A stretch of 64,000 nucleotides of DNA from positions 372,001-436,000 of the forward strand of contig JAHBWI010000004.1 in assembly GCA_019637075.1 (NCBI GenBank). Reading direction: 5' to 3'. How positions within the stretch are numbered: position 1 is the first letter of the stretch; the number at the start of each line of letters is the position of its first letter. A program made the position numbers and the translations under genes. Below are positions 43,094 through 56,747 of the stretch, piece by piece. The notes under the pieces were generated by a model, which did no database searches, was not told the origin of the DNA, and worked only from the letters and a program-made list of their open reading frames with translations. This DNA is from Nitrospiraceae bacterium (lineage in GTDB: Bacteria; Nitrospirota; Nitrospiria; Nitrospirales; Nitrospiraceae).

Positions 43094-44203
43094 ATGATGA
43101 CGAAGCGGCAGGTTCTCTATGAAACGGGATGGGGATGGTGGACCGTCGCCATCGTAACCGGTCTAGCAGTGTGGTCGAGCGGGAACTTCAGGGCAAATGC
43201 GGAACAAGCAGGCCCGATGACCGCGGTCACCTTAGATGCCCGCCTTACCAATTACACTGCGAATGAGCCGGTCTCCGGGCATGTTCGAGTTCAAGGCTCA
43301 GAAACCATGCTGCCCCTCATGCAGCGCGTCGCGGCGGAATTCCGGAGACGCCAACCGCAAGCCGGAATCGACGTCACCGGCGGCGGTTCGGCCAAAGCCA
43401 TTGAGCAACTGGTCCAACCTCCGCTCAAATCAACGGGTAAGATCCACCTGAAAGAAGAGCGCCACACCCCTGCCCTGGTTGTGGCTTCGTCCCGTCCACT
43501 CACGCAATCAGAGATCGCACAGTTTACCGCTCAACACGGTCATGCCCCATTGACAGTCGCCGTGGCGGTTGATGCAGTGGCACTCTATGTGCACAAGGAC
43601 AATCCGATCGAAGGCCTCACGCTCAAGCAGGTCGATGCGATCTTCTCCTCGACCCACAACCGCGGGCTACCCGACGACATCAAGCGATGGGATCAACTCG
43701 GGCTCGACAGCAAGTGGAGCCATTCTCCGATCCGCCTATACGGCCGAGATAGAAAATCCGGCACACGCGGCTTCTTTCAGGAGCATGTATTGGCCGGGGG
43801 GGATTTCAGTCCCGGCATACAGGAAGAACCGGGAGCCGCCTCATTGATTCTCGCGCTGTCGCGAGACCCGCTGGGCATCGGTTACAACGGCCTTGGCTTG
43901 ATGAGTTCGAGCGTCCGTGTAGTGCCGCTGGCGGAAGGCTCAGGACAGCCATTTGTTACACCCTCGGCCGCCACCGTTGCGGATGAGACCTATCCCCTGC
44001 GACGGCTGCTGTATCTCCATTTCGACAAGGCCCCGAGCGAACCCCTGCCTGGAGTGGTGACGGAGTTGGTGCAGTTCATCACAAGTCGTGATGGGCAAGA
44101 GGCGGTAGTGCGGGCTGGATTTTTTCCGCTTCCGATCTCTGAAATCGACAAGGGTCAGCTGGCATTGAAGCCGAATGCTGCCCCGATCGCCCCGACGCCC
44201 TAG
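43094..44203 (+). CDS. PstS-like periplasmic phosphate-binding protein
   Basis: A 369-residue exported protein, signal peptide about residues 15-37 (WWTVAIVTGLAVW). The mature part has VRVQGSETMLPLMQRV, VTGGGSAKAIEQL, VDAVALYVHKDNP, the IRLYGRDRKSGTRGFF loop that hydrogen-bonds phosphate in PstS, and GIGYNGLGLMSS. A paralogue of pstS at 56748, but no permease genes are next to it, so it may deliver ligand to PstCAB or act as a scavenger. A three-site Pho-type box lies upstream. Convergent with a lipoprotein gene. Confidence 0.88.
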   Translation: MMTKRQVLYETGWGWWTVAIVTGLAVWSSGNFRANAEQAGPMTAVTLDARLTNYTANEPVSGHVRVQGSETMLPLMQRVAAEFRRRQPQAGIDVTGGGSAKAIEQLVQPPLKSTGKIHLKEERHTPALVVASSRPLTQSEIAQFTAQHGHAPLTVAVAVDAVALYVHKDNPIEGLTLKQVDAIFSSTHNRGLPDDIKRWDQLGLDSKWSHSPIRLYGRDRKSGTRGFFQEHVLAGGDFSPGIQEEPGAASLILALSRDPLGIGYNGLGLMSSSVRVVPLAEGSGQPFVTPSAATVADETYPLRRLLYLHFDKAPSEPLPGVVTELVQFITSRDGQEAVVRAGFFPLPISEIDKGQLALKPNAAPIAPTP

Positions 44204-44210
44204 TCAAGAT

Positions 44211-45146
44211 TCAAGGACCCGTAGGTTTGTTCGGCGACTTTCCGCGCGGCGCTTTTCGGTCAAGCTCCTGACGCAGCTTCGTCACGTCCTCCTTCAACGC
44301 CTCAATCATCTTGCGTTGCTCTTCAACGAGCCGGCGCAGATCAAGATTCGAATGGGTCAGCTCCTGAATCTGAAGACTCAGTTCATCAGTTTGCTGCCGA
44401 GGTTGCAGGCTTTCACCGGCTGTGACCGGGCTGCCCGGAGGGAGGCCAGCGCTGGGACCGTCCCCCACCGAGGTCGCCCCACCGGCTGCAGGCGGTCTCT
44501 TGGCGGAGGCCAACACGTCCGCCACGGTTACTGAGAGGTGAACCCTCTCGAATGGGGCCCAGCGCGGCTCCTCCGCGTCCGGAACCATGGCGGCAGCGGC
44601 CGGGCGATTGACCCAGAGTTTCATTCCTTTGTTGTCGCGCACATCCCGTTCCTCTCCCCCGCCTGTATCAGCCCTCGCGAATTCGGCATGGTCTTGAAGC
44701 ACAACGTGCAGATAGCGACCTCGCAGGAACAGCGCTCCGGCGATTCGGTCATCGCTTGCGCCCTTCCTGGTTCCGATCAGTTGAAACGCGATTCGCTCGC
44801 CCCTTCCCGCATCCTTGAGGCCGTCGGCGATCGGACCGGCAATGGCCTCGAGTTCAGCTTGTGAAAAGACCGGGACCGCGCGGGGTTGCTCAAGAAGTCC
44901 CACCAAGGTCCCGCTCCAACCACTGACCTGCAGCGGTTCCAGAAGCAGCCGGACATCCTCCGCCGACAGGCTGGCGGGATGATTGTTCGCCACTGGTGAC
45001 GCGGCACGCCGGAGACTCGGATCAGGTTCGACGGCAACTCGGACTCCACCCCGATCAAGCAATACCCGCTCGGCTTGCAACAGACTGCAGCCGGGGACCA
45101 AACAGAGGACGACGGCAATCAGAAGCAACTTCCGGCAGTGTCTCAT
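44211..45146 (-). CDS. Lipoprotein with coiled-coil C-terminus, paralogue A
   Basis: About 311 residues from the ATG at 45146 (AAGGAG upstream). A signal peptide ends with lipobox VPGC near residue 20. A conserved region follows (NNHPASLSAEDVRLLLEPL, QVSGWSGTLVGLLEQPR, PVFSQAELEAIAGPIADGL), then VRDNKGMKLWVNRP, a Pro/Ala-rich linker and a C-terminal coiled coil (LSLQIQELTHSNLDLRRLV). Same architecture as the gene at 50788. Third gene of the porin-Slp-lipoprotein operon. I cannot assign a function; a periplasmic or outer-membrane role in phosphate uptake is inferred from context. Confidence 0.85.
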   Translation of the reverse strand: MRHCRKLLLIAVVLCLVPGCSLLQAERVLLDRGGVRVAVEPDPSLRRAASPVANNHPASLSAEDVRLLLEPLQVSGWSGTLVGLLEQPRAVPVFSQAELEAIAGPIADGLKDAGRGERIAFQLIGTRKGASDDRIAGALFLRGRYLHVVLQDHAEFARADTGGGEERDVRDNKGMKLWVNRPAAAAMVPDAEEPRWAPFERVHLSVTVADVLASAKRPPAAGGATSVGDGPSAGLPPGSPVTAGESLQPRQQTDELSLQIQELTHSNLDLRRLVEEQRKMIEALKEDVTKLRQELDRKAPRGKSPNKPTGP

Positions 45147-45286
45147 CGCGAGCTGACTCCTTCTCGGGTCATCGGAGCTAAACGCGTAATGGCGCTCCAC
45201 GCTGCAGCAGGGACGGCCGCTATGGATGATGGGTAGACTCGAACGAGGGCTGGCGTTGTACTGACCACGAAGCAGGAAACGTATGG

Positions 45287-45829
45287 TCAGTGACCGGACA
45301 GGCAGAAGGTGGATTCCTCAAGTGGCTCATACCCACCTCCGATGTTGTGAGGAAATTCGGAGATCTGCTGCCGCCCGGTCAACCAGATGTGCACACATTG
45401 GGCATTGACCGATGGCAATGACCGCTGCACATCGTCGACCGACACGGATTGAGGCGACTCGGTCGTCCCGATAACGATCAACTTGTTTTCCGGCGCCAGG
45501 GCCTTCGCAGGAATCTTTCCGGAAAAGCGAATCACCATCTCGCCGTTGCGCTTGCCTACCTCGCGCGGACCATACGCGGGATGATCGACGATCGGCAGTT
45601 GAAAGGCCACGATTCGCAGCCCATCCGCGCTTGAATCGGCTTGCAAGATGCGTCCGCCCAATTGCACCTTGGTGCCGATCTTGGTGGAAGGAGAGGAGCG
45701 CCAGGCGGAAAAATCAAAGTTCTGATCCACTCCAGACAGCGTCTCGGCGGGAAACAGTTGGGTCGTACCGCATGAAGACAGCAACGGCAGGGCTGCGAGC
45801 ACGACGATCAGGCGAGACAAGCTGGACAT
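45287..45829 (-). CDS. Slp-family outer-membrane lipoprotein, copy 1
   Basis: About 180 residues from the ATG at 45829 (AAGGAG upstream). Signal peptide with lipobox LLSSC, then an Slp-type beta domain: FDFSAWRSSP, KVQLGGRILQADSSADGLR, AFQLPIVDHPAYGPREVG, RFSGKIPAKAL and CVHIWLTG. The family is named after the E. coli starvation-inducible lipoprotein; its biochemical role is not established. Lies 47 bp downstream of porin 1. Paralogues at 48372 and 49209. Confidence 0.88.
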   Translation of the reverse strand: MSSLSRLIVVLAALPLLSSCGTTQLFPAETLSGVDQNFDFSAWRSSPSTKIGTKVQLGGRILQADSSADGLRIVAFQLPIVDHPAYGPREVGKRNGEMVIRFSGKIPAKALAPENKLIVIGTTESPQSVSVDDVQRSLPSVNAQCVHIWLTGRQQISEFPHNIGGGYEPLEESTFCLSGH

Positions 45830-45876
45830 GGCGACAGACTCCTTCTGCCCTCCAAGGGCGCGACCGTGATTGCAGC

Positions 45877-47349
45877 TTACATGAAACGGATCTGCCACTG
45901 CACGAGAAATGCGTTCTGCGCAAAGGGGTCACCGATCCCCGTCGTCGGATCGACCACGGCTCCGGGACCGTTGCCCGAATGGTGGCGGAATTCGTAGTTG
46001 ATCTGCAACTTCGACTGAACCTTGGGCGGGAAGTTCTCGAAGTAGTATGTCAGCCCGACGATGGTCCTCGTATAGAGATCGTTCCCCAGTCTGGTATTGG
46101 GATCGAATTGCTCATACATGACGACCGGCTCGAAATTTTCGAAGATGCCGTCGGTGATCAAATACTTTGCCAGCACATACCAGGTGCGGCGTTGCACACC
46201 CGGGGCACCGGATCCGCCGCATATGGCCTGCACATCGCAGGCACCGTTCGCGGGACGCCCGATCGTCGTCTGATTGGCGCCATCATGTCCTTGCCAAAGT
46301 TCCCCCTGGACCATGAACCCGGGCAGGATTTTTGACGTATAGCGAAAATCTAGGCCGTAGCGGTCGAAGCTGCCCTTGCCGCGGCCGTTGATGTTGGTAT
46401 TCGCATTGTTTGATTCTCCGACGATCGTCGTGAAGCTGACAAACGAGACATCGCTGCCGAACAAACGGACACGGCTGTAGAAACTCTTGGGCGCATTCGC
46501 CCCGGTCGCATTGGCATGGTAGTTGTTGTTGTTCATGACGCCCGCGACATACTCGAGCCGATTGAAGAGCCTTCCACGCATATCGACGAAGAAATCACGC
46601 TCCTGAAGAAAGTCGACCGCACCGGCCGAGCCCGTGCGGTTGCCGGCGCCGTTTCCCACCGACGTGAGATAGGGGGAACTAATCACATCCCGCAAACCGC
46701 CCGAGGTTTCCGTGAAGATGCCGAAGGGCATCCGGAAGATACCCATGCGGATGAAGTTCAGGTTGGGGGCCAAGGACTGAAAGGGCCGGAAGTCGATATA
46801 GCTTTCGCGAAAGAAGGTCGCCGCCGTCGGCTGTCCGGTCGCCGCGCCACTCCCACCGGTCGGCGTCTCTCGCCCAAAATTGATGCTTTGAAATTCGAAC
46901 AGGGCATGCCACCGCGGCAGAGTATCGCTCAGACGGCCCCAGAAGATGATTTCGGACCGTCGGATCGAAAAGTTATCTTGGCTTTTGCCTTCCGGCACGT
47001 GGGCGTCTTGATGGGTATAGAGAAACTGGAGCGCGTTCAAACCGACATTTACCTTGTCCCGTAAAATCGGCAGCAATTCGATTTTGGTCTTCCAATCCTC
47101 GAGAGCGTCGATACGTTTGTCGCGTTCGGTCCCCCGATATTCTTGTTCGGCTCGAATCTGGATCCACTCGTCCATCGTGATCACCCCCTTTTGGAGGAGT
47201 AAATCCTCGACGGGGGTGCCGCCCGCAGGAATATCGGCCTGCTGGGAACTTGGCTGATGGTCCGCGCCCTGCGCCCCAAGAGGAGTCGAGATCAGCGCGA
47301 TTGCACTACACATCGACATAGCCAGGACAAACGAACGGATGCTCCCCAT
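45877..47349 (-). CDS. Outer-membrane porin, phosphate-selective porin O/P type, copy 1
   Basis: A 490-residue exported protein: signal peptide (FVLAMSMCSAIALIS...AQG), a short coiled coil (RDKRIDALEDWKTKIELL), then a beta-barrel rich in aromatic, alternating strands: SIRRSEIIFWGRLSDTLP, FFRESYIDFRPF, IRMGIFRMPFGIFTETS, FDRYGLDFRYTSKIL and C-terminal QNAFLVQWQIRFM ending in Met after aromatic Phe. Resembles OprP/OprO-type porins. Ligand selectivity is inferred from its phosphate context. AGGAGG precedes the ATG; first gene of a three-gene operon behind a Pho-type box. Confidence 0.85.
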   Translation of the reverse strand: MGSIRSFVLAMSMCSAIALISTPLGAQGADHQPSSQQADIPAGGTPVEDLLLQKGVITMDEWIQIRAEQEYRGTERDKRIDALEDWKTKIELLPILRDKVNVGLNALQFLYTHQDAHVPEGKSQDNFSIRRSEIIFWGRLSDTLPRWHALFEFQSINFGRETPTGGSGAATGQPTAATFFRESYIDFRPFQSLAPNLNFIRMGIFRMPFGIFTETSGGLRDVISSPYLTSVGNGAGNRTGSAGAVDFLQERDFFVDMRGRLFNRLEYVAGVMNNNNYHANATGANAPKSFYSRVRLFGSDVSFVSFTTIVGESNNANTNINGRGKGSFDRYGLDFRYTSKILPGFMVQGELWQGHDGANQTTIGRPANGACDVQAICGGSGAPGVQRRTWYVLAKYLITDGIFENFEPVVMYEQFDPNTRLGNDLYTRTIVGLTYYFENFPPKVQSKLQINYEFRHHSGNGPGAVVDPTTGIGDPFAQNAFLVQWQIRFM

Positions 47350-47419
47350 GTGCGGAATCCTCCTGCAGGAATGGATCGGAATTGCGGATCACAGCCTAAA
47401 GAAGGAATATGGACGAGGG

Positions 47420-47447
47420 GTTACGCGAATGTTACGGGCGTGTAACA
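47420..47447 (-). promoter_or_regulatory. Pho-type box upstream of porin operon 1
   Basis: Half-sites begin at 47420 (GTTACG), 47431 (GTTACG) and 47442 (GTAACA): 11-bp phase. On the reporting strand they read TGTTAC, CGTAAC, CGTAAC. About 70-100 bp upstream of the porin ATG. Confidence 0.75.
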
Positions 47448-47497: not shown

Positions 47498-48214
47498 TTA
47501 AGCCGGCGTCCGCAGTTTGTAGCCGACGCCTCTGATCGTGACGATCAGCCTGGGTTTGGACGAATCCTCCTCGATCTTCTGCCGCAGGGCGTGAATGTGC
47601 ACATCCAGAGCATGTTCTTCCAAGGCAAAATCCTCTCCCCACACCCGGTTCAGCAGTTCCTGCCTGGTCAGCACGATCTCAGGTGATTCGAGGAATTGAC
47701 GCAGGATCTGAAATTCCCGAAGCGTCAGTTCAACCGGCTTGTCCCCGATCCTGACCTCATGCCGTGCAATATCCATCTGGACGGGACCGCAATGTAACGG
47801 AGCACTACCCGCGCGCGCGCTCGGGCGTCGACGCAAAATTGAGCGGATGCGTGCCACGATCTGGCGGACACTTTGATTGCAGAGGCACCCGTCAAGCCCC
47901 TGGTCGAGTTCGGCGATACAGTCGTCTTCCTGAACCATCGTCTCCGGTGATTCGATACTGATGAATGGCACGCGGCTCAGCGCCGGATGGTTGCGCGCGG
48001 AATGCCAACTTCGGATGTGCCGATCAACCAGAACCAACGCCGGCTTGGACTTTTGTGCATAGGCAAGCGCAGCCTGTGGGTCGGGCAGGAGGACCAGCCG
48101 GCAGTTCATGCCCAGGAGCCCTTTCTGGAGCATTCCTTCTAAGGACTCGTTGGCCGAAAGCAGAAGCAGCGTATCGCCGGCGGCTCGTTCAATGGTGTGT
48201 TCAAGCGTCGTCAC
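47498..48214 (-). CDS. OmpR/PhoB-type regulator with degenerate receiver
   Basis: 238 residues. The C-terminal winged helix (about 145-238: LTLREFQILRQFLES, HALDVHIHALRQKIEE, VTIRGVGYKL) is intact and PhoB-like. The N-terminal receiver aligns to the normal fold but has lost key residues: the acidic pair is Ser/Ala (LLLSANES), the Thr is Glu (FISIESPE), the Lys is Asn/Gln (CLCNQSV); only the Asp at 64 (LVLVDRHI) remains. It should not be phosphorylated normally. GTG start. A Pho-type box lies 50-80 bp upstream. Confidence 0.88.
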   Translation of the reverse strand: MTTLEHTIERAAGDTLLLLSANESLEGMLQKGLLGMNCRLVLLPDPQAALAYAQKSKPALVLVDRHIRSWHSARNHPALSRVPFISIESPETMVQEDDCIAELDQGLDGCLCNQSVRQIVARIRSILRRRPSARAGSAPLHCGPVQMDIARHEVRIGDKPVELTLREFQILRQFLESPEIVLTRQELLNRVWGEDFALEEHALDVHIHALRQKIEEDSSKPRLIVTIRGVGYKLRTPA

Positions 48215-48265
48215 GATCGTATCGCTCGTCCTTCATCCAGTATGGAGGAACCTTGTTTCTTCGCC

Positions 48266-48293
48266 GTCAGAATGCTGTTACGGGATCGTAAAT
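48266..48293 (-). promoter_or_regulatory. Pho-type box upstream of the degenerate-receiver regulator
   Basis: GTCAGA (48266), GTTACG (48277), GTAAAT (48288): 11-bp phase. Suggests autoregulation. Confidence 0.65.
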
Positions 48294-48941: not shown

Positions 48942-49058
48942 GGGCGCTCCTTTGCATGGGTTGTCTGATTCGGCTGAAGATCGACGACCTTCGGCCACGG
49001 TTTCTCCAGAGACTCCAAAATCTTCATATTTGTAAGCTTGTTGCCACCGGTACCCGGT

Positions 49059-49097
49059 GTTACACTTCAGTTAAACGAATGTTACACACGTGTTACA
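49059..49097. promoter_or_regulatory. Four-site Pho-type box between slp copies 2 and 3
   Basis: GTTACA (49059), GTTAAA (49070), GTTACA (49081), GTTACA (49092): four half-sites at exactly 11 bp. The clearest box in the window. Confidence 0.88.
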
Positions 49098-49208
49098 AAG
49101 ATGCATCAGCCGAACCTGCTTCACATGATCGAGTCGGCGCCTTGTACGGCAGCATCGAGGGTCAAGGTCATGGTCCACAATCTACCTGTCCGGCCGAGGA
49201 GGTTCACG

Positions 49209-49745
49209 ATGAGAGTACTTTCTGTCGGAGTGCTGGCCTGCTCAGCACTCATGGCTTCGGGCTGTTCCACCCCTACGCTGTTTCCTCCCGGTGCTACGAG
49301 CGACGCGACTCCCGTTGAATTCGGCGTCGTTCGAGCACAACCGGACGTGTTCAAGGGGCGCGTCGTCCAGTTGGCCGGTCGTATTGTCGGCGTCGAAGAA
49401 TCGAACCATGGATACCAGATCAGAGCTCAGGAGCTTCCTCTGGAACAACATCCGGTCTACGGGCCCGGAGAAGCGCGTGGACGCACCCCTGAATTTGCGA
49501 TTGCCTACAGCGGTAAGCTCGACCCATCCGCCCGTTGGTACGGCAACAAGTTCGTGGTGGTCGCCGTTGCCCAAGGCACGCAGGACGTGACCGTGGATGG
49601 GAATGTCCGCAATGAGCCGTATGTGGTCGCCACGTGCATGCATATCTGGAAGACCGGCGAGTACGGGTCCTATGGCCTCGGCGATTTTCCCCATACGACC
49701 GACGGCTACTATCCGCTGGAACACGACACGTACTGCGTAAACTAG
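49209..49745 (+). CDS. Slp-family outer-membrane lipoprotein, copy 3
   Basis: 178 residues from the ATG at 49209 (GAGGAGG upstream); an upstream in-frame start at 49038 would begin inside the regulatory box region and is rejected. Signal peptide with lipobox MASGC, then the Slp domain: VFKGRVVQLAGRIVGVEE, AQELPLEQHPVYGPGEARG, IAYSGKLDPSA and CMHIWKTG. The C-terminus ends in a Tyr-rich HTTDGYYPLEHDTYCVN. Of the three copies this and copy 1 share the C-terminal cysteine near the end (TFCLSGH in copy 1). Confidence 0.88.
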   Translation: MRVLSVGVLACSALMASGCSTPTLFPPGATSDATPVEFGVVRAQPDVFKGRVVQLAGRIVGVEESNHGYQIRAQELPLEQHPVYGPGEARGRTPEFAIAYSGKLDPSARWYGNKFVVVAVAQGTQDVTVDGNVRNEPYVVATCMHIWKTGEYGSYGLGDFPHTTDGYYPLEHDTYCVN

Positions 49746-49756
49746 GTTCAGCGCGC

Positions 49757-49786
49757 GACGCAGGTCTCCTCACGGAAGCCTGCGTC
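49757..49786 (+). terminator. Hairpin downstream of slp copy 3
   Basis: An 8-bp stem (GACGCAGG with CCTGCGTC) and 14-base loop, 12 bp past the stop. No T-run; weak evidence. Confidence 0.4.
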
Positions 49787-49820
49787 CCATTCCCGCCGGC
49801 CTCGTCGGTTTTCCCACTTT

Positions 49821-50684
49821 CTACAAGTGTGTTTTCGGGTTCTTCTCCGGAACCTCGGTGAAGCGACAGGCTGGGACATAGCCGTCTCGGCATGAGCGGT
49901 CGTAGTCCTTCAGAGCGCCAGCCGTATCACCCAATATCGAGCGAGCCACACCCCGGTTGTAGACCAACACCTCATCGGAGACGCCCAACTCAATCGCGCG
50001 TGAAAAATCCCGTTCCGCCCGCTCATACTCGCCGGTCAGCATGGAGACGAGACCACGGCTCTGGTACACAGCCGGCATGTCGGCGTTCAGACGCGCCGCT
50101 CGATCCAAATCACGCGCGGCACCATCGAAGTCCTGCCGCATGGCAAGCACCACCGCACGGTTGGCGAAAATCGTTGCATCCTGCCGATTCAATTGCGCGG
50201 CAGTGTCGAAATCTCGAAGAGCGTCTTCTAACTGAGCGAGATGGCGAAGGGCTTGCCCACGATGGTTGAGGAGTCGTGCCGAGGGAGGTCCGAGCCGAAG
50301 CGCATCGTTGAAGGCATCCAACGCCTGCCGGTAGCGCCCGGACTCCAGGTAGACCGCTCCGAGATTACCCCGGTACAAAGGCTGCTGAGGATCCAAACGC
50401 ACCGCTTCGGTAAAATCGCGGATCGCCTGTTCTCTTGCACCTTGCGTGCTGTAGATGAACCCGCGGGCGTTCCACGGTTCCGGGTTGGTGGGCGAGAAAA
50501 CGATCGCGCGAGATGCGGTCTCGAGCGCACGTTCGACTTGACGCTGTTGGAACTCCGTCCGGCATTGGGACAAGAGTGCAGCCATCGGGTCCTGGGAGGC
50601 CATGGGCGGGACAGTCGTCGTACAGCTCCATTGCAGGGCGATGGACAAACTGATTCCAAGCCCCAATCCAACGCGCCAAACCAT
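49821..50684 (-). CDS. Exported TPR-repeat protein
   Basis: About 287 residues from the ATG at 50684 (AAAGGAGGAG upstream). A signal peptide is followed by a cysteine (ALQWSC), not a good lipobox. Then about six TPR units: NPEPWNARGFIYSTQG, QPLYRGNLGAVYLESG, SARLLNHRGQALRHLA, DATIFANRAVVLAMRQ, MPAVYQSRGLVSMLTG and DEVLVYNRGVARSILG. A periplasmic scaffold is likely. Own Pho-type box upstream, so part of the phosphate-starvation set (inference). Confidence 0.85.
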   Translation of the reverse strand: MVWRVGLGLGISLSIALQWSCTTTVPPMASQDPMAALLSQCRTEFQQRQVERALETASRAIVFSPTNPEPWNARGFIYSTQGAREQAIRDFTEAVRLDPQQPLYRGNLGAVYLESGRYRQALDAFNDALRLGPPSARLLNHRGQALRHLAQLEDALRDFDTAAQLNRQDATIFANRAVVLAMRQDFDGAARDLDRAARLNADMPAVYQSRGLVSMLTGEYERAERDFSRAIELGVSDEVLVYNRGVARSILGDTAGALKDYDRSCRDGYVPACRFTEVPEKNPKTHL

Positions 50685-50748
50685 ACTCTCCTCCTTTGGA
50701 ATGCCAATCGGTGCGTGCACCTGACTGGCTGGAGAGTATGGGATTCGT

Positions 50749-50787
50749 GTTACCCGACTCCCAAGGACGGGTTAACTCCGCGTTAAC
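50749..50787 (-). promoter_or_regulatory. Pho-type box upstream of the TPR gene
   Basis: Half-sites begin at 50749 (GTTACC), 50771 (GTTAAC) and 50782 (GTTAAC): 22 bp then 11 bp apart, all in one 11-bp phase. The last overlaps the stop codon of the upstream lipoprotein gene. Confidence 0.7.
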
Positions 50788-51801
50788 TTATTCCGCAGAC
50801 GGCTTGACGGCAGGTTTACGGGTGGGACTCTTGACCGAACCTTTGGAGGCTTTCAGTTCCTCGCGCAGTTGGCGGAGTTCGTTCTTCAATTTGTCCAATT
50901 CAGAAGTCTGTTGCTCCAGCTGCGTGCGGAGCTTTTGATTGGCCATGTCGAGGTCACTGACCTTCTGCTGCACATTCAGCCCACCGTCGCGGGATGCTGG
51001 AGCCGACGCCCCCACGGGGGAAGTGGGCGCGGGCGAGGCAGGTGGGGAGGCTGGCGCGGCAATGTCTGGCTTGGCGGGAACACTGCTCGGTTGCAAGGCC
51101 GCCAGTACATCACGAACTCTCATTGAAACATGAACCTTCTCAAAGGTACTCCACCGGGGCTCCTGCCCCTCAAGCAGAGAGGCGGCCTGCGCCGGCCGCA
51201 CGATCCAGAGCTTCATGCCCTTCGTATCACGAGGGTCACGGCGTTCGCCTCCTCCCGGATCGGCCTGTTGGAAAATATAGTGATCGACGAGGATGAAGTG
51301 CAGGACTCCGTCGCGGATGAACATGCTGCCCGCGGTGCGGTCCGTATCGTAGCGTGCCGAAGGATTTTGCAGCGAAAAGAAGACCCGTTCTTTTGGGCCG
51401 GCCTCCGCAAACGCCCGTGCGAACGGTTCCGCCAGCGCCGTCAGCTCGCTGCCGGCAAACACCGGGACAGGCCGCGGATTATCGAAGACCCCGACGACGA
51501 TGCCGCTCCATCCCGACACCTCGATCGCTCCCAACAGCGTGCGTACCTCCTCGGCGGTGAGTTTCGCAGGATGGGCATTCAGGATCGGCGGAACGGCGGT
51601 CTCCGTGGTGCTCAGGTCGGATTCCACGCCGAGCTGCACGCCTTTGGTTTCGTGCGTGACCCGTTGGATCAACGGCGCAGTACAACCGCTCAGGTAGAGG
51701 GCCGCCACCATGATCAGGGGCGCAACGGTGAACTGCTTGGGGAGACGGAAGAGGGAGCGCTGCGGATGACAGTCACACACGGGAAGGGATAATGGCTTCA
51801 A
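50788..51801 (-). CDS. Lipoprotein with coiled-coil C-terminus, paralogue B
   Basis: 337 residues. Signal peptide with lipobox YLSGC near residue 40, then the same conserved block as paralogue A (LNAHPAKLTAEEVRTLLG, IEVSGWSGIVVGVFDNPR, PVFAGSELTALAEPFARA, RDTKGMKLWIVRP), a Pro/Ala-rich linker and a coiled coil (DLDMANQKLRTQLEQQTSEL). Starts at TTG with GAGG six bases upstream; the N-terminus before the signal peptide is long and uncertain. Third gene of porin operon 2, mirroring operon 1. Function unknown. Confidence 0.83.
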   Translation of the reverse strand: MKPLSLPVCDCHPQRSLFRLPKQFTVAPLIMVAALYLSGCTAPLIQRVTHETKGVQLGVESDLSTTETAVPPILNAHPAKLTAEEVRTLLGAIEVSGWSGIVVGVFDNPRPVPVFAGSELTALAEPFARAFAEAGPKERVFFSLQNPSARYDTDRTAGSMFIRDGVLHFILVDHYIFQQADPGGGERRDPRDTKGMKLWIVRPAQAASLLEGQEPRWSTFEKVHVSMRVRDVLAALQPSSVPAKPDIAAPASPPASPAPTSPVGASAPASRDGGLNVQQKVSDLDMANQKLRTQLEQQTSELDKLKNELRQLREELKASKGSVKSPTRKPAVKPSAE

Positions 51802-51812
51802 GAGATCCTCAT

Positions 51813-52157
51813 CTATTTACATGCGAACTGAATGGCCCATTGTTTTTCTTTCGACACTTGTCCATTGCCGGAGACCTGACCTTTCCACGCCCGGTCGACC
51901 GCCTGGCTGATGCGTGGAACCTGGCCTTCACGCAAGACACGATAGCCGCCGGGGCACTTCCCCTCAAGGAGGCGAAGTGCATCCCGACGGCCCTCTGATG
52001 CCAACACGTCCTCGTCATCGAAGTAGGGATAGGCTACGGTACCCCGGTCCCCAGAGTCAGCCAAAAACTTGGCTGAATTTCCGCATCCTGTCAACTCAAG
52101 CAGGCAGACACCGACCAGTAAGATCGTGGCGCCCCTGTTCCCTCTACGACTACACAT
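51813..52157 (-). CDS. Small lipoprotein
   Basis: 114 residues. Signal peptide (NRGATILLVGVCLLEL) with lipobox LTGC, a mature part starting GNSAKFLADSGDRG, a middle CPGGYRVLREGQVPRIS and a basic/Gln C-terminus ending QWAIQFACK. It begins 2 bp after the porin 2 stop, so coupled. Occupies the position that Slp copy 1 takes in the first porin operon but shows no clear Slp similarity. Not recognised. Confidence 0.75.
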   Translation of the reverse strand: MCSRRGNRGATILLVGVCLLELTGCGNSAKFLADSGDRGTVAYPYFDDEDVLASEGRRDALRLLEGKCPGGYRVLREGQVPRISQAVDRAWKGQVSGNGQVSKEKQWAIQFACK

Positions 52158-52159
52158 GC

Positions 52160-53596
52160 TTACTGATAACGGATCTGGAACTGGACCAAAAACGCGTTCT
52201 GTGCGAATGGATCGTTGTTGGCCACCGTAGTCGCAGGTCCCGTTCCCTGGTGATGCCGGAATTCGTAGTTGACCGACAACTTGCTTTGGATTTTCGGGGG
52301 AAGATTCTCGAAATAGTAATTGAAGCCGACGATCGTCCGCGTGAACATGTCGTTCGATACGGCCGTGTTCGGATCGAATTGTTCGTACATGACGACGGGC
52401 TCGAAATCCTTGAGCGGGCCGCTGGAGATCAGGTACTTGGCCAACACGTACCACGTCCGTCTCTGAACACCCGGTGCCCCGGACCCACCGCAGAACGCAC
52501 GATTCAAACAGTCACCTTGGGCCGGTGTGCCGACGATGGTCGGATTCGAACCATCATGCCCCTGCCACACTTCGCCCTGGATCATGAACCCCGGCAGCCA
52601 GCGCGAGGTATAGCGCGCATCGAGTCCGTAGCGATCGAAGGAGCCCTTGCCGCGGCCGTTGATGAAGGTGCCGGTATTGTTGCTCTCCCCGCCCAACACG
52701 GTCATGCTCACGAAGGAAATATCCGTGAAGAAATACCGCAGCCTGCCGTACCCGACCTTCGGGCCGTTACCGCCCAAGATATTGGCCTGGTAGTTGTTGT
52801 TGTTCATGATGCCGCCGACGTAGTCCAGCTTATTGAACAACGTACCACGCATGTCAACGAAATAATCGCGCTCATGGATCAGTTCGATCGGACCGCCGGT
52901 ACCGTTCGTCGTCGTCCCGCCGCTGCCGACGGAGGTGAGGTACGGCGAGCTGATCACGTCGCGCAGACCGCCGGAGGTTTCCGTGAAGATACCGAACGGC
53001 ATACGAAAAATACCCATCCGAATGAAATTGAGGTTCGGGGCAAGACTCGGAAACGGTCTGAAATCGATGTATGATTCGCGAAAGAACGTCGCTGCAGTCG
53101 GCACGCCGCCTGCCTTCGCGGAGCAATTGCCGCCGGGTGAGTTGCTACAATCGGGGGTATTGTTCGTCAAATTGATGCTCTGGAACTCGAACAGCACGTG
53201 CCATTTGGGAATGAACTCGTTGATCTTGCCGTAAGCCAGTAACTCAGATCGCCGGATCGAGAAATTATCCTGGCTGCGCCCCTCTGCGGTTTTGGCATCC
53301 TGGTGCGTATAAAGAAATTGCAACGCGTTCAATCCGAAGTTCACCTTGTTGCTGAGCAGCGGGAGCCGCTCGACCTTGGTCTTCCACTCTTCAACCACGC
53401 TCAGGCGCTTTTCATAACTTGCGAGCGGGTCCTCCACAACTGGGGTCAAAGACGATGATGAGGCCGCTTGAACCGTCTGAACCGGCTTCTGTGGGTCCGT
53501 CCCTGACGACGTTTGAGCCGCCGCCTGCTCGGCCGAGAAGAGAGCCACGCACAGGACCCCGGCACCAGTAAATAACCTACTCCACTGCTCGCGCAT
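52160..53596 (-). CDS. Outer-membrane porin, phosphate-selective porin O/P type, copy 2
   Basis: About 478 residues from the ATG at 53596 (ATAGGAGG upstream); a longer in-frame start is rejected because it would extend into the Pho-type box. Signal peptide (LFTGAGVLCVALFS..AAAQ), Ala/Gln-rich linker, coiled coil (YEKRLSVVEEWKTKVERL), then the barrel, closely similar to copy 1 strand by strand (SIRRSELLAYGKINEFIP, IRMGIFRMPFGIFTETS, FDRYGLDARYTSRWL), ending QNAFLVQFQIRYQ. First gene of operon 2. Confidence 0.85.
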   Translation of the reverse strand: MREQWSRLFTGAGVLCVALFSAEQAAAQTSSGTDPQKPVQTVQAASSSSLTPVVEDPLASYEKRLSVVEEWKTKVERLPLLSNKVNFGLNALQFLYTHQDAKTAEGRSQDNFSIRRSELLAYGKINEFIPKWHVLFEFQSINLTNNTPDCSNSPGGNCSAKAGGVPTAATFFRESYIDFRPFPSLAPNLNFIRMGIFRMPFGIFTETSGGLRDVISSPYLTSVGSGGTTTNGTGGPIELIHERDYFVDMRGTLFNKLDYVGGIMNNNNYQANILGGNGPKVGYGRLRYFFTDISFVSMTVLGGESNNTGTFINGRGKGSFDRYGLDARYTSRWLPGFMIQGEVWQGHDGSNPTIVGTPAQGDCLNRAFCGGSGAPGVQRRTWYVLAKYLISSGPLKDFEPVVMYEQFDPNTAVSNDMFTRTIVGFNYYFENLPPKIQSKLSVNYEFRHHQGTGPATTVANNDPFAQNAFLVQFQIRYQ

Positions 53597-53690
53597 GTAC
53601 AGTCCTCCTATGATGAGTGTGACGACGAATACGCCGCCTAAAACGCTTCCGATGAATCCCGTTGGTTGCTGCACCGTGGTACAGCTGCGC

Positions 53691-53729
53691 TGTAACGATG
53701 CATTCAGTCATGTGTTAGGACTGTGTAAA
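53691..53729 (-). promoter_or_regulatory. Pho-type box upstream of porin operon 2
   Basis: On the plus strand TGTAAC (53691), TTCAGT (53702, poor), TGTTAG (53713), TGTAAA (53724), each 11 bp apart; on the reporting strand these read TTTACA, CTAACA, ACTGAA, GTTACA. About 95-135 bp upstream of the start. Confidence 0.7.
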
Positions 53730-53812
53730 CTCCGTGAGCCTGCCGGTTGAGCGATCCTTCCTAGACCCGCTCGCAGCCTCCTGAACTATCGCTTCTCGTA
53801 TGGATACGGACG

Positions 53813-54262
53813 TCAACGCTTACTCCTGAACGTCAGAGCGAGTCGGTACCCGACGCCCCATATCGTTTCGGCAATCTCGTTCTCCTCGGCTTCGCGCAGC
53901 TTGTGTCGGAGCTTCGCCATATGGACATCGATGGTTCTGGCGGTGACGAAGAGATTTTTCCCCCATACGAGGCCCAAGAGTTCTTCACGGCGAAAGACCT
54001 TGCCGGGTTGTTCCGCCAAGGCCCAGAGCAGATCGAATTCACGGCGCGTCAGACGTATCAGGCGCCGACGTAACGTCACGGCCCGTTGCTCCCGAACGAG
54101 TATCAGCGGCCCGACGGTGAGACAGGTCCCAGCCGGCGGGTGGTGCTTTAGCGACGACTTCAGCGTGTGTTCGCGCACCTGTCTGCCCGTCTTCCCCAGT
54201 CTCACCCTCACCTCGCGTCGCTCCCGATCACGCGACAGGGTCGGGCGGCCGCAATGCGTCAT
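53813..54262 (-). CDS. Receiver-less PhoB-type winged-helix regulator
   Basis: 149 residues. A basic, probably disordered N-terminus (residues 1-45), then an OmpR/PhoB winged helix (about 48-145): LTVGPLILVREQRAVTLRR, LTRREFDLLWALAEQPGK, RREELLGLVWG, RTIDVHMAKLRHKLRE and IWGVGYRLAL. No receiver domain exists upstream in the sequence; a two-site Pho-type box lies 75-95 bp before the ATG and marks the promoter. Binding-only regulator; it could bind the same boxes as PhoB, as activator or competitor (inference). Confidence 0.85.
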   Translation of the reverse strand: MTHCGRPTLSRDRERREVRVRLGKTGRQVREHTLKSSLKHHPPAGTCLTVGPLILVREQRAVTLRRRLIRLTRREFDLLWALAEQPGKVFRREELLGLVWGKNLFVTARTIDVHMAKLRHKLREAEENEIAETIWGVGYRLALTFRSKR

Positions 54263-54337
54263 CGCCGCCCTGCCCGTTCCCTGCTCCAGAACTCGCGCTG
54301 ATGTACCTTGTCGAAAATGCGGGCTTCGTCACCGGAA

Positions 54338-54354
54338 GATTAATGTTGTGTTAA
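54338..54354 (-). promoter_or_regulatory. Pho-type box upstream of the receiver-less regulator
   Basis: On the minus strand TTAACA (54354-54349) and TTAATC (54343-54338), exactly 11 bp apart. Confidence 0.6.
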
Positions 54355-54378
54355 CTCCCACCGGAGCCGGCGGAAGAA

Positions 54379-54406
54379 TTAACCAAGCCCTAACCTTGGG
54401 TTAAAC
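54379..54406 (+). promoter_or_regulatory. Pho-type box upstream of psiE
   Basis: TTAACC (54379), CTAACC (54390), TTAAAC (54401): 11-bp phase, about 115-143 bp before the psiE ATG. Confidence 0.7.
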
Positions 54407-54521
54407 GAGACGGAACAACGCGGCGGTAGCTTGCTGATGACACAGCGGTGAGAAGGAGCGGGGTCAGTCAGCCACTGTCGGCCGGAGTCCTGCACAACAG
54501 ACAACGAAGGAGCGACGGAGA

Positions 54522-55025
54522 ATGACGCTATCGAACGTGCGGCATGCCTTGAACAGGATTCCAGCCTCGGTCGAGCAAGCGGCGGAGTGGGACATCACGG
54601 AGCTGTGGGTCAAGGTCATCAGGGTTGTCCTGAGCCTTCTCATTTTCACCATTCTTGTTGCGCTGACCGGAGGGGTCATCAAGACGTTCCTGGATATCCG
54701 TCTCTTGTTTTCCGGTCCCGTCGAGGTGGGGTTGCGGCAGGTGATCGTCGATACCCTGATTCTTCTGGCCGTCGTGGAGGTGTTCAAGACCACGCTCACC
54801 TATCTATCCGAAGGCCGGGTCAAGGTCACCTTCATCGTCGACACCATCTTGGTCGTGATGCTCACTGAAATCATTTCCATATGGTTCAAGGACGCCGATT
54901 TGCACAAACTGATGCTGCTTGGCGGGATCGTGTTGACTCTCGGGGTCATGCGGGTGGTCGCGGTCCGCTGCAGCCCGACACAGGGCGACAGCGCCGGAAG
55001 AACGTCGGCTGGAGAGGGCTTCTAG
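54522..55025 (+). CDS. psiE: PsiE-family phosphate-starvation-inducible membrane protein
   Basis: 167 residues with about four hydrophobic segments (VIRVVLSLLIFTILVAL, VIVDTLILLAVVEVF, FIVDTILVVMLTEII, LMLLGGIVLTLGVMRVV) typical of the PsiE family. Its name comes from PhoB-dependent induction in E. coli; function unknown. GAAGGAG precedes the ATG. The phased box upstream fits phosphate control. Followed 55 bp later by a small winged-helix protein on the same strand. Confidence 0.85.
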   Translation: MTLSNVRHALNRIPASVEQAAEWDITELWVKVIRVVLSLLIFTILVALTGGVIKTFLDIRLLFSGPVEVGLRQVIVDTLILLAVVEVFKTTLTYLSEGRVKVTFIVDTILVVMLTEIISIWFKDADLHKLMLLGGIVLTLGVMRVVAVRCSPTQGDSAGRTSAGEGF

Positions 55026-55080
55026 TCCTTTTATGATGACGCGACAGCTGTCAGAAGGTCATTACGAAAGGAGGAGGACG

Positions 55081-55311
55081 ATGGGGACAATCACCAGCAG
55101 CGAAACGATCATTCTCGACTTGCTGCGGTTGAGAAAGTCGCTCCGGATGGAACAGGTGATCGAGTTGGCGCCGGAACTGACCTGGAACCAGGTCTTCACG
55201 ACGATTGATAGCCTCAGCCGCCGTGGAGAAATTGCCTTGCTACGGCGTGGGTTCGAATATGAAGTCGCCTGGCTGCCGGTCCGCGGCCAGGCTGTGGCCT
55301 GCTCCGCCTAA
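55081..55311 (+). CDS. Small winged-helix-like protein
   Basis: 76 residues from the ATG at 55081 (AAAGGAGGAGG upstream, which rejects an in-frame start 16 codons earlier). Predicted helices ETIILDLLRLRKSL, MEQVIELAPELTWNQVFTTI and DSLSRRGEI followed by a beta wing (ALLRRGFEYEVAWLPV), the layout of a minimal DNA-binding winged helix. Likely cotranscribed with psiE. No family name recognised. Confidence 0.75.
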   Translation: MGTITSSETIILDLLRLRKSLRMEQVIELAPELTWNQVFTTIDSLSRRGEIALLRRGFEYEVAWLPVRGQAVACSA

Positions 55312-55473
55312 CCTCCGCCGCCCATGTGCGGTTCACTCCGCACAGCGGTTGACGCCTTCCATTTTTCTGAAAGCCGCCACAGCCGTATCCCTTGTCACGA
55401 AAGGTTTAGCGGGCATGGGGCATCCCGTTGCCATCGCCGGGGCCGCTCCCTATGTCTACTTCAAACGGAAAGG

Positions 55474-56131
55474 ATGGTTGAATTGACCGTGACCAATGCA
55501 CCCCCCACCTACCCTGCCGAGGTGCTGTCGGATCTTGATCAAACCAGGTCCCGCCGTATTTGGTCTCTGCTGAAGATAATCCAATCGGGATGGCGGACTT
55601 CATGTCGATGACACGTTTGGATCAACCGAACCTCAAGAATCCACCGATGCAACCTTTTATCCCGGAACCGGTCGTTTCCAATGACATCTTGGCCTCAGTC
55701 AGTCAGGGAGACCTCCTGCTGTACCATGCGACGGCTACATCGCATTCAAGATGGATGCGATGGTCGATAAAGACTGTATCCAGGCGCTGTATCGCGCATC
55801 GCAAGTCGGGGTGACGATTGATTTGCACATCCGAGGGATCATCTGCTGCCTGCGTCCCGGGATTCCCGGCGTGAGCAACGCGATCCGTGTCCGCTCGGTC
55901 GTGGGCCGCTTTCTCGAACACGCGCGGATCTACGGCTTCCGTAATGGGGGAGAAAACGATCTGTTTCTGGGCAGTGCGGATCTCATGCTGCAAAATCTCG
56001 ACCGCCGGGTTGAACTGCTCTTTCCAGTGCGTGATCCCTCGCGGGCGGTCGACAGGGACCGGGCGACCGTCTTCAACTCACAGGAATACTTGCTCCAACG
56101 CAGAGGCGTGCATTGCTGGTCGAAACGGTAG
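55474..56131 (+). pseudogene. Decayed polyphosphate kinase (ppk1) remnant
   Basis: Pieces of PPK1 in three frames. From 55474, a short piece LTVTNAPPTYPAEVL resembling the PPK1 middle domain; from about 55557 in another frame, YLVSAEDNPIGMADFMSM, RLDQPNLKNPPMQPF and [16 protein letters not shown]; from about 55733 in a third frame, [61 protein letters not shown]. Missing are the N-terminal half and, between pieces two and three, the block carrying the first catalytic phospholipase-D-like domain. It cannot make active enzyme. The 160 bp before it (55312-55473) also translate to fragments I cannot place. Confidence 0.85.
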
Positions 56132-56223
56132 GGGGGCGGTGGGGTACCCTGGGGAAAAGACCGCATGGGGTCGTCCGCCCGATCCAAGGGACGGATCGGA
56201 CGGCTGCCCCGTCACGCGAGCGA

Positions 56224-56463
56224 CTAGGAGTAGGAGTTGGCGTCTTCTCCGATCCGCCTCGTGCGGCGCGGCGCGCTCCCGGGATCCGATCGTTCCACCG
56301 TGAAGCGGGGTTGGCGGCCCAACCGCGGCCTGATTGCCCTCCGCTGCATATCGATACGCGGATCCCGCACGGAACCGCAATTGATGCATCGTACGAGCTT
56401 CAAGTCACCGCATCCCACATACAAATCCGCAACCAGCAACCCAGCACAACGTTCGCAGGACAT
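56224..56463 (-). CDS. Small zinc-ribbon protein
   Basis: 79 residues from the ATG at 56463 (AAGGAGG upstream). The N-terminal half has MSCERCAGLLV and LVRCINCGSVRDPRI, two CxxC knuckles about 25 residues apart that should bind one zinc; the C-terminal half is basic and likely unstructured. This type of small CxxC/CxxC protein is common in Nitrospira-like genomes to my knowledge. Function unknown; may bind nucleic acid. Confidence 0.78.
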   Translation of the reverse strand: MSCERCAGLLVADLYVGCGDLKLVRCINCGSVRDPRIDMQRRAIRPRLGRQPRFTVERSDPGSAPRRTRRIGEDANSYS

Positions 56464-56619
56464 CGTACATTCCTCCTTGAGTGATGGCCTGCTGCATGAT
56501 CCTCCTCCCACGTCACCGGCTCATGTGGCCCGACTCAAGAGCTTGTTACATTGCGAGAGTCCGACCCCAGGCCTCCGTGATGAACCCCGGCAGCGATGCC
56601 GCCCTGTGAATTCGAGGAA

Positions 56620-56647
56620 TTAACACGCGCTTAATGTGTCGGTAAGC
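56620..56647 (+). promoter_or_regulatory. Pho-type box upstream of pstS
   Basis: TTAACA (56620), TTAATG (56631), GTAAGC (56642): 11-bp phase. A TACACT at about 56667 could be the -10 element. Confidence 0.72.
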
Positions 56648-56747
56648 CCTGCGCAATGTCGCCGGCTTACACTGCATCTGCTCATCGTGCAGTCATCCAT
56701 ACGGTAATCATTCACTTCTTCGTTCATTCATGGGGAGGCATCCGGTT

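Follow-up and report, generated by a model that had tools for sequence, protein, structure and literature searches.

The window, by which we mean the whole 64,000-nucleotide stretch of Nitrospiraceae DNA that was analysed, contains a receiver-less PhoB-like regulator gene, hereafter WH, in the midst of a phosphate island. The genome itself is labeled G000, and other G numbers denote relatives. The genes on which the argument draws are as follows:

53813..54262, minus strand: WH, receiver-less PhoB-like regulator gene (start uncertain: ATG 54262, GTG 54211/54205, or GTG 54178)
53840..54058, minus strand: OmpR/PhoB winged-helix DNA-binding domain of WH (Pfam stretch, PF00486, E 4.8e-25)
54522..55025, plus strand: psiE, divergent neighbor of WH (PF06146, E 1.2e-11)
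52160..53674, minus strand: presumed OprP-like porin, next cassette gene after WH (start may be internal)
50788..51801, minus strand: cassette gene, predicted lipoprotein (by eye) with a coiled-coil-like end
49821..50720, minus strand: cassette gene, TPR protein
49191..49745, plus strand: cassette gene, Slp-family lipoprotein (PF03843, E 4e-10; start approximate)
47498..48214, minus strand: P0002, PhoB-like regulator with a pseudo-receiver (three-half-site box by eye at about 48264-48292)
45877..47349, minus strand: paralogous OprP-like porin of another cassette (box upstream at about 47419-47447)

Counted from the ATG, the WH open reading frame encodes 149 amino acids, and the product contains one accepted Pfam domain, Trans_reg_C, at residues 69-141 (E 4.8e-25); GerE, with E 0.017, falls short of the Pfam cut-off. 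An AlphaFold model of the 121-amino-acid version, built from a 7-sequence alignment (mean pLDDT 75.4), has the fold expected of an OmpR/PhoB effector domain, with four strands at the N-terminus and the accompanying helices, and a disordered tail below 50. The top Foldseek matches to this model are the effector domains of ArlR, YycF, and PhoB, with the PhoB-pho box complex 1gxp third in the list (32% identity to chain A), so that Pfam, AlphaFold, and Foldseek all place WH with the C-terminal winged-helix effector domains of the OmpR/PhoB family. An N-terminal receiver domain is absent from WH and from all five of its orthologues. The gap between WH and psiE (54263-54521), which holds conserved boxes, measures 259 bp, less than a receiver needs, and there is consequently no room for one upstream. 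The domain ends at residue 141 of 149 with no further Pfam domain, which does not fit a ToxR-like layout, where a membrane-spanning segment comes after an N-terminal winged helix, and no hydrophobic stretch was found in WH by eye. A sequence-only reading of this DNA had described WH as a winged helix with a basic tail, with no receiver lost outside the gene. The winged helix and the missing receiver are borne out by the Pfam result, the short gap, and the short frames of the five orthologues, while the tail is as uncertain as the start codon. Alignment with the orthologues begins only at the first strand, about residue 47, so the basic tail is perhaps untranslated, and translation may instead begin at GTG 54178 to give 121 amino acids.

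The gene order shows WH leading a porin-TPR-Slp cassette that lies as an insertion within a conserved pst/psiE island. The WH-side porin, called OprP-like here, has no Pfam match; its orthologue adjoins WH in all five relatives at 60-82% identity. The porin is thus the next gene after WH in six of six genomes, and the lipoprotein, TPR, and Slp genes follow in five of the six; the G035 contig stops within the TPR gene. In four of the six (G000, G035, G036, and G037) psiE faces WH, which, together with the constant porin, upholds the conserved synteny that the sequence-only reading had proposed to look for. Genes for pst and phoU lie near WH in every one of the six, those of G004 and G152 being of a different type. 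A close orthologue of the cassette Slp protein (at least 66% identity; 66-75%) was found in 5 of 175 genomes, all of them WH carriers, while G169 and G172 encode Slp homologues of 50-51% and have no short WH match among the matches listed. Ten further islands, a non-random set selected for psiE matches near regulators or of high rank, gave no match to the WH-cassette genes, and in 7 of the 10 psiE faces a full-length regulator of the P0002 type. These regulators were considered as WH orthologues and rejected, since the positional counterparts fall in a different clade of the tree described below.

The island itself contains two tandem paralogous cassettes, at 43094-47349 and 49191-53674, each made up of porin, Slp-family lipoprotein, and related lipoprotein genes with a PhoB-like gene alongside. 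The likeness between them is about 33-45% for the two Slp genes and for the lipoproteins w50788 and w44211, and about 60-70% for the porins. A 92-amino-acid open reading frame without a Pfam match (55033-55311) lies between psiE and pstS and recurs in 14 of the 15 relatives' islands examined.

Clear WH matches are present in 6 of 175 family genomes (G000, G035, G036, G037, G004, and G152), the five orthologues from relatives matching at E 1.2e-28 or better with 46-65% identity. Their stop-to-stop frames are short, at 129-159 codons against 171 in G000, whereas the weaker matches beyond these six genomes lie mostly in frames of at least 227 codons, the shorter exceptions among the matches listed being G008 (105), G107 (164), and G078 (204 codons). 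The sequence-only reading had named a receiver in the orthologues as the finding that would expose a truncation in the assembly; with independent short orthologues in five other genomes, an assembly error is refuted. Between G036 and G037, the closest pair, WH has a dN of 0.044 and a dS of 0.167, and the resulting dN/dS of about 0.26 points to purifying selection on the gene. A tree built from 65 DNA-binding domains, in which alignment columns are few and long branches are flagged, places the receiver-less proteins on a branch of their own (98/96), outside both the canonical PhoB clade (98/97) and the P0002 family (94/83). The tree retained 65 of 76 rows, those dropped being the rows of the R3 family (see below) together with x.L114, x.L110, x.L047, x.L044, and x.L043. 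Because WH does not group with the PhoB that is paired with PhoR, it does not qualify as a PhoB orthologue.

Beyond the family, a profile search of 395 genomes of the phylum, a sample drawn without G035 and G004, gave scores above 150 bits in only five (G036, G037, G152, G000, and G008), scores that are inflated because the profile contained all five; the next best match reached 109.6 bits and lies inside a 243-codon frame. A broader search of genome contigs returned two matches, from Arachnia and Anaerolineae, both about 40% identical to WH, the former within a 272- or 287-codon frame and the latter at the end of its locus; both were then set aside. The G008 protein (L050 9913-10221), a stand-alone winged helix of 102 amino acids, joins the WH branch on a very long branch of its own; its neighbors, named by eye, are ExbB/TonB-like and metal-ATPase genes, and no phosphate gene was observed among them. 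The protein stayed in the tree and the alignment but was left out of the orthologue count. It could be argued that WH is a functionless remnant of a truncated response regulator or a product of misassembly, as it is sparse (six of 175 genomes) and its start and tail are poorly conserved. With the gene short in six of six genomes, its context conserved, its dN/dS about 0.26, and its clade distinct, such an origin is very improbable. That WH is a conserved, receiver-less PhoB-like regulator is, by the same evidence, close to certain.

This genome has other PhoB-like regulators. P0002 was claimed, with WH, to make up a pair of phosphorylation-independent PhoB-like proteins; it is, however, not receiver-less, as it carries a pseudo-receiver without the acidic pair and the Lys. 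In all 17 aligned members of its family these residues are missing and the Asp is kept, which makes P0002 a pseudo-receiver regulator, whereas WH has no receiver whatsoever. A recent loss of the receiver from P0002 through cassette duplication was considered as the origin of WH and not adopted, although the neighboring genes look duplicated, because the tree does not nest WH within the P0002 clade. The claim that no ordinary phoB/phoR is in view applies to the window and fails for the genome: near 525 kb on contig C3, a full-length PhoB with an intact receiver (EDE, D, K) adjoins a PhoR-like kinase (matched by TIGR02966 at E 4.4e-93, which is below the curated cut-off). The distant PhoB that the sequence-only reading had supposed does therefore exist. 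A PiT permease gene and a DUF47 gene, both named by eye, lie next to this phoB-phoR pair, and the four genes occur together in five of five relatives examined, a count made without stretch L132 (G035). The apparent oddity of two such proteins without phoBR is weakened by the presence of the pair elsewhere in the genome and because pseudo-receiver regulators are a known class (PMC12632262).

Two further regulators were observed in passing. Beside pstS in relatives lies a family, R3 (L045 9956-10648, L047 5934-6674, and L107 8406-9098, for example), that is the mirror image of P0002: in eight aligned relatives the receiver residues are intact (IEDE, D, K) and the winged helix is decayed. The family is absent from the window at 55311-56730, and a search for an R3 remnant at 55200-56730 gave no significant match. 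About 3.6 kb past the window end, a response regulator that matches Trans_reg_C weakly, at 45.6 bits (L006 6621-7379, near 439.7 kb on contig C4), lies beside polysaccharide-export-like genes, named by eye.

Tandem half-sites of the GTTAAC type, spaced by 11 bp, are found at nearly every promoter of the island, that of WH included:

54327..54355, minus strand: box toward WH, three 11-bp-spaced half-sites GTTAACA, ATTAATC, GGTGACG
54378..54406, plus strand: box toward psiE, three half-sites ATTAACC, CCTAACC, GTTAAAC
53692..53730, minus strand: box between WH and the porin, TTTAC, CTAAC, CTGAA, GTTAC at 11-bp spacing
50771..50788, no strand assigned: strongest box, GTTAACT N4 GTTAACT, between the lipoprotein and TPR genes
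49058..49097, no strand assigned: array of GTTACA/TGTAACA half-sites upstream of the Slp gene
56619..56647, plus strand: box upstream of pstS, ATTAACA, CTTAATG, GGTAAGC

The single Pho-type box previously placed at 54338-54406 is real and conserved, but it is in fact two boxes, one directed toward WH and one toward psiE. Both have counterparts in G035-G037, where the first two half-sites of the WH box are conserved, as are the box between WH and the porin and the pattern upstream of pstS. The strongest box has counterparts in G036, G037, G004, and G152, and a four-half-site array precedes WH in G004 and G152, the two genomes in which it has no facing psiE. Allowing at most one mismatch, the pattern GTTAAYN5GTTAAY occurs at four distinct sites in the 4.06-Mb genome, three of them within 11.4 kb of the island, compared with 21 genome-wide matches to the control pattern read backward. 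The single match outside the island, with one mismatch, is at positions 4158-4174 of contig C15. A weight matrix made from the half-sites of the WH-psiE gap in six genomes found seven sites scoring at least 11.4 in the 20.4-kb island (a count that includes two training sites, at 54327-54406), none in the remaining 42.9 kb of the window, and seven in 200 kb of background. With the threshold lowered to 10, a spacing of 11 gave 10 sites in the island, and spacings of 7-10 and 12-16 gave 0-5.

The tandem direct-repeat Pho-type box at its promoter, with half-sites like those of psiE, the porin, and the pst genes, indicates that WH most likely belongs to the Pho regulon of the island, a prediction that we hold with considerable confidence. 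A box scoring above 10 bits before the DUF47 gene in two of six loci (G000 and G004) weakly suggests PhoB as a reader of these boxes. No box type was observed to be confined to WH genomes. Relatives lacking WH retain the psiE box, which thus does not depend on WH; this box is most likely read in the first place by PhoB or P0002.

It is conceivable that WH is only a target of nearby Pho boxes and itself reads another site, controlling only the cassette or something else. The persistence of the psiE box without WH, the separation of the WH clade from those of PhoB and P0002, and two substitutions, Lys for Arg201 and Trp for the minor-groove residue Arg219 in what we take to be PhoB numbering, are in keeping with this. 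Yet by eye there is no second conserved repeat in the WH-psiE or WH-porin gap, and T194 and V197, on the same assumed numbering, are kept (the latter being Ala in the WH of G152), which makes a separate site unlikely. The Trp at position 219 was set aside as a hallmark of WH, as other full-length regulators in the set share it.

Alternatively, the bare winged helix might fill Pho boxes while making poor contact with RNA polymerase, damping PhoB output as a negative feedback. WH is itself expressed from these boxes. Its sequence has no D192 and, G152 apart, no E191, presumably the corresponding positions of the sigma-contact loop; W184, G185, V190, and E177, numbered likewise, are nevertheless kept, and the position of WH just upstream of the porin fits a cassette activator. 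The alignment further reveals that the local canonical PhoB is itself without V190, E191, and D192, so losses of this kind cannot tell an activator from a brake. The roles of PhoB residues in activation and DNA contact are treated in PMC3973317 and PMC3348028, according to which E191 and D192 of the sigma-contact loop are important for activation by E. coli PhoB. The contact between receiver and polymerase that is modeled in PMC3348028 is missing from a free domain. Taken together, a damping role appears doubtful, if slightly less so than a separate site.

The reading that we prefer, with a probability of about 0.5, is that WH is a PhoB-like activator that does not respond to phosphorylation, that belongs to the Pho regulon, and that strengthens or lengthens the response according to its amount. 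As a free-standing effector domain without a receiver of its own, it would have no off-switch, and its activity would be set by its amount and not by phosphorylation. In phosphate shortage, the ordinary PhoB/PhoR pair would turn WH on, and WH would occupy these arrays in head-to-tail order, either by itself or together with PhoB or P0002, acting mainly to amplify or prolong expression of its own cassette (porin, TPR protein, and Slp lipoprotein) and of neighboring genes. Once made, it would be a feed-forward activator needing no signal. Binding of WH to the predicted boxes of the island is somewhat more likely than not, though without a receiver dimer it may be weak; that WH amplifies rather than competes is a tentative call, put just short of even. 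For E. coli PhoB on pho box DNA, affinities of 440 nM for the unphosphorylated and 9.7 nM for the phosphorylated full-length protein are quoted in PMC3264566, which gives 63 nM for the free DNA-binding domain, 7-fold better than the unphosphorylated full-length protein. For CmrT, control through the quantity of a constitutively active regulator has been proposed (PMC12632262). A bolder and quite improbable extension is that regulator parts have been pulled apart in one type of island, with a working-type receiver and decayed DNA-binding domain in R3, a dead receiver in P0002, and none in WH. On this view, PhoB, P0002, and WH would share three- and four-half-site boxes in mixed head-to-tail arrays, and the length of the Pho state would be governed by dose instead of by the phosphate signal, as in a latch or memory.

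Stripping PhoB of its receiver is something done in the laboratory, and WH would be a conserved equivalent from nature, integrated into the Pho regulon. If this is correct, WH shows evolution's use of a regulator without an off-switch, and Pho control in nitrifier relatives becomes testable. The present analysis also supplies a predicted Pho box and regulon for this group.

With the PhoB effector domain, WH shares the winged-helix fold, a PhoB-like recognition helix, and 11-bp tandem boxes, and it differs from PhoB in having no receiver and in belonging to a clade separate from that of the genome's own PhoB. ToxR/CadC and SARP proteins likewise carry a Trans_reg_C winged helix without a receiver, fused to membrane or other domains, whereas WH is the domain alone. 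The pseudo-receiver OmpR/PhoB regulators ChxR and CmrT are, like WH as proposed, not switched by phosphorylation, CmrT being expression-controlled in its published model (PMC12632262), but they keep the receiver fold, by which ChxR dimerizes, and WH has none (PMC12632262, PMC3960148); their counterpart here is P0002 rather than WH. Receiver-less winged helices and pseudo-receiver regulators are already known kinds, and in the open-access literature we found no report of a Pho regulator without a receiver from Nitrospirota. To the extent covered by the searches, what is new is that a conserved PhoB-like domain stands alone, is itself under Pho-type boxes, and shares its island with a gene for a pseudo-receiver regulator.
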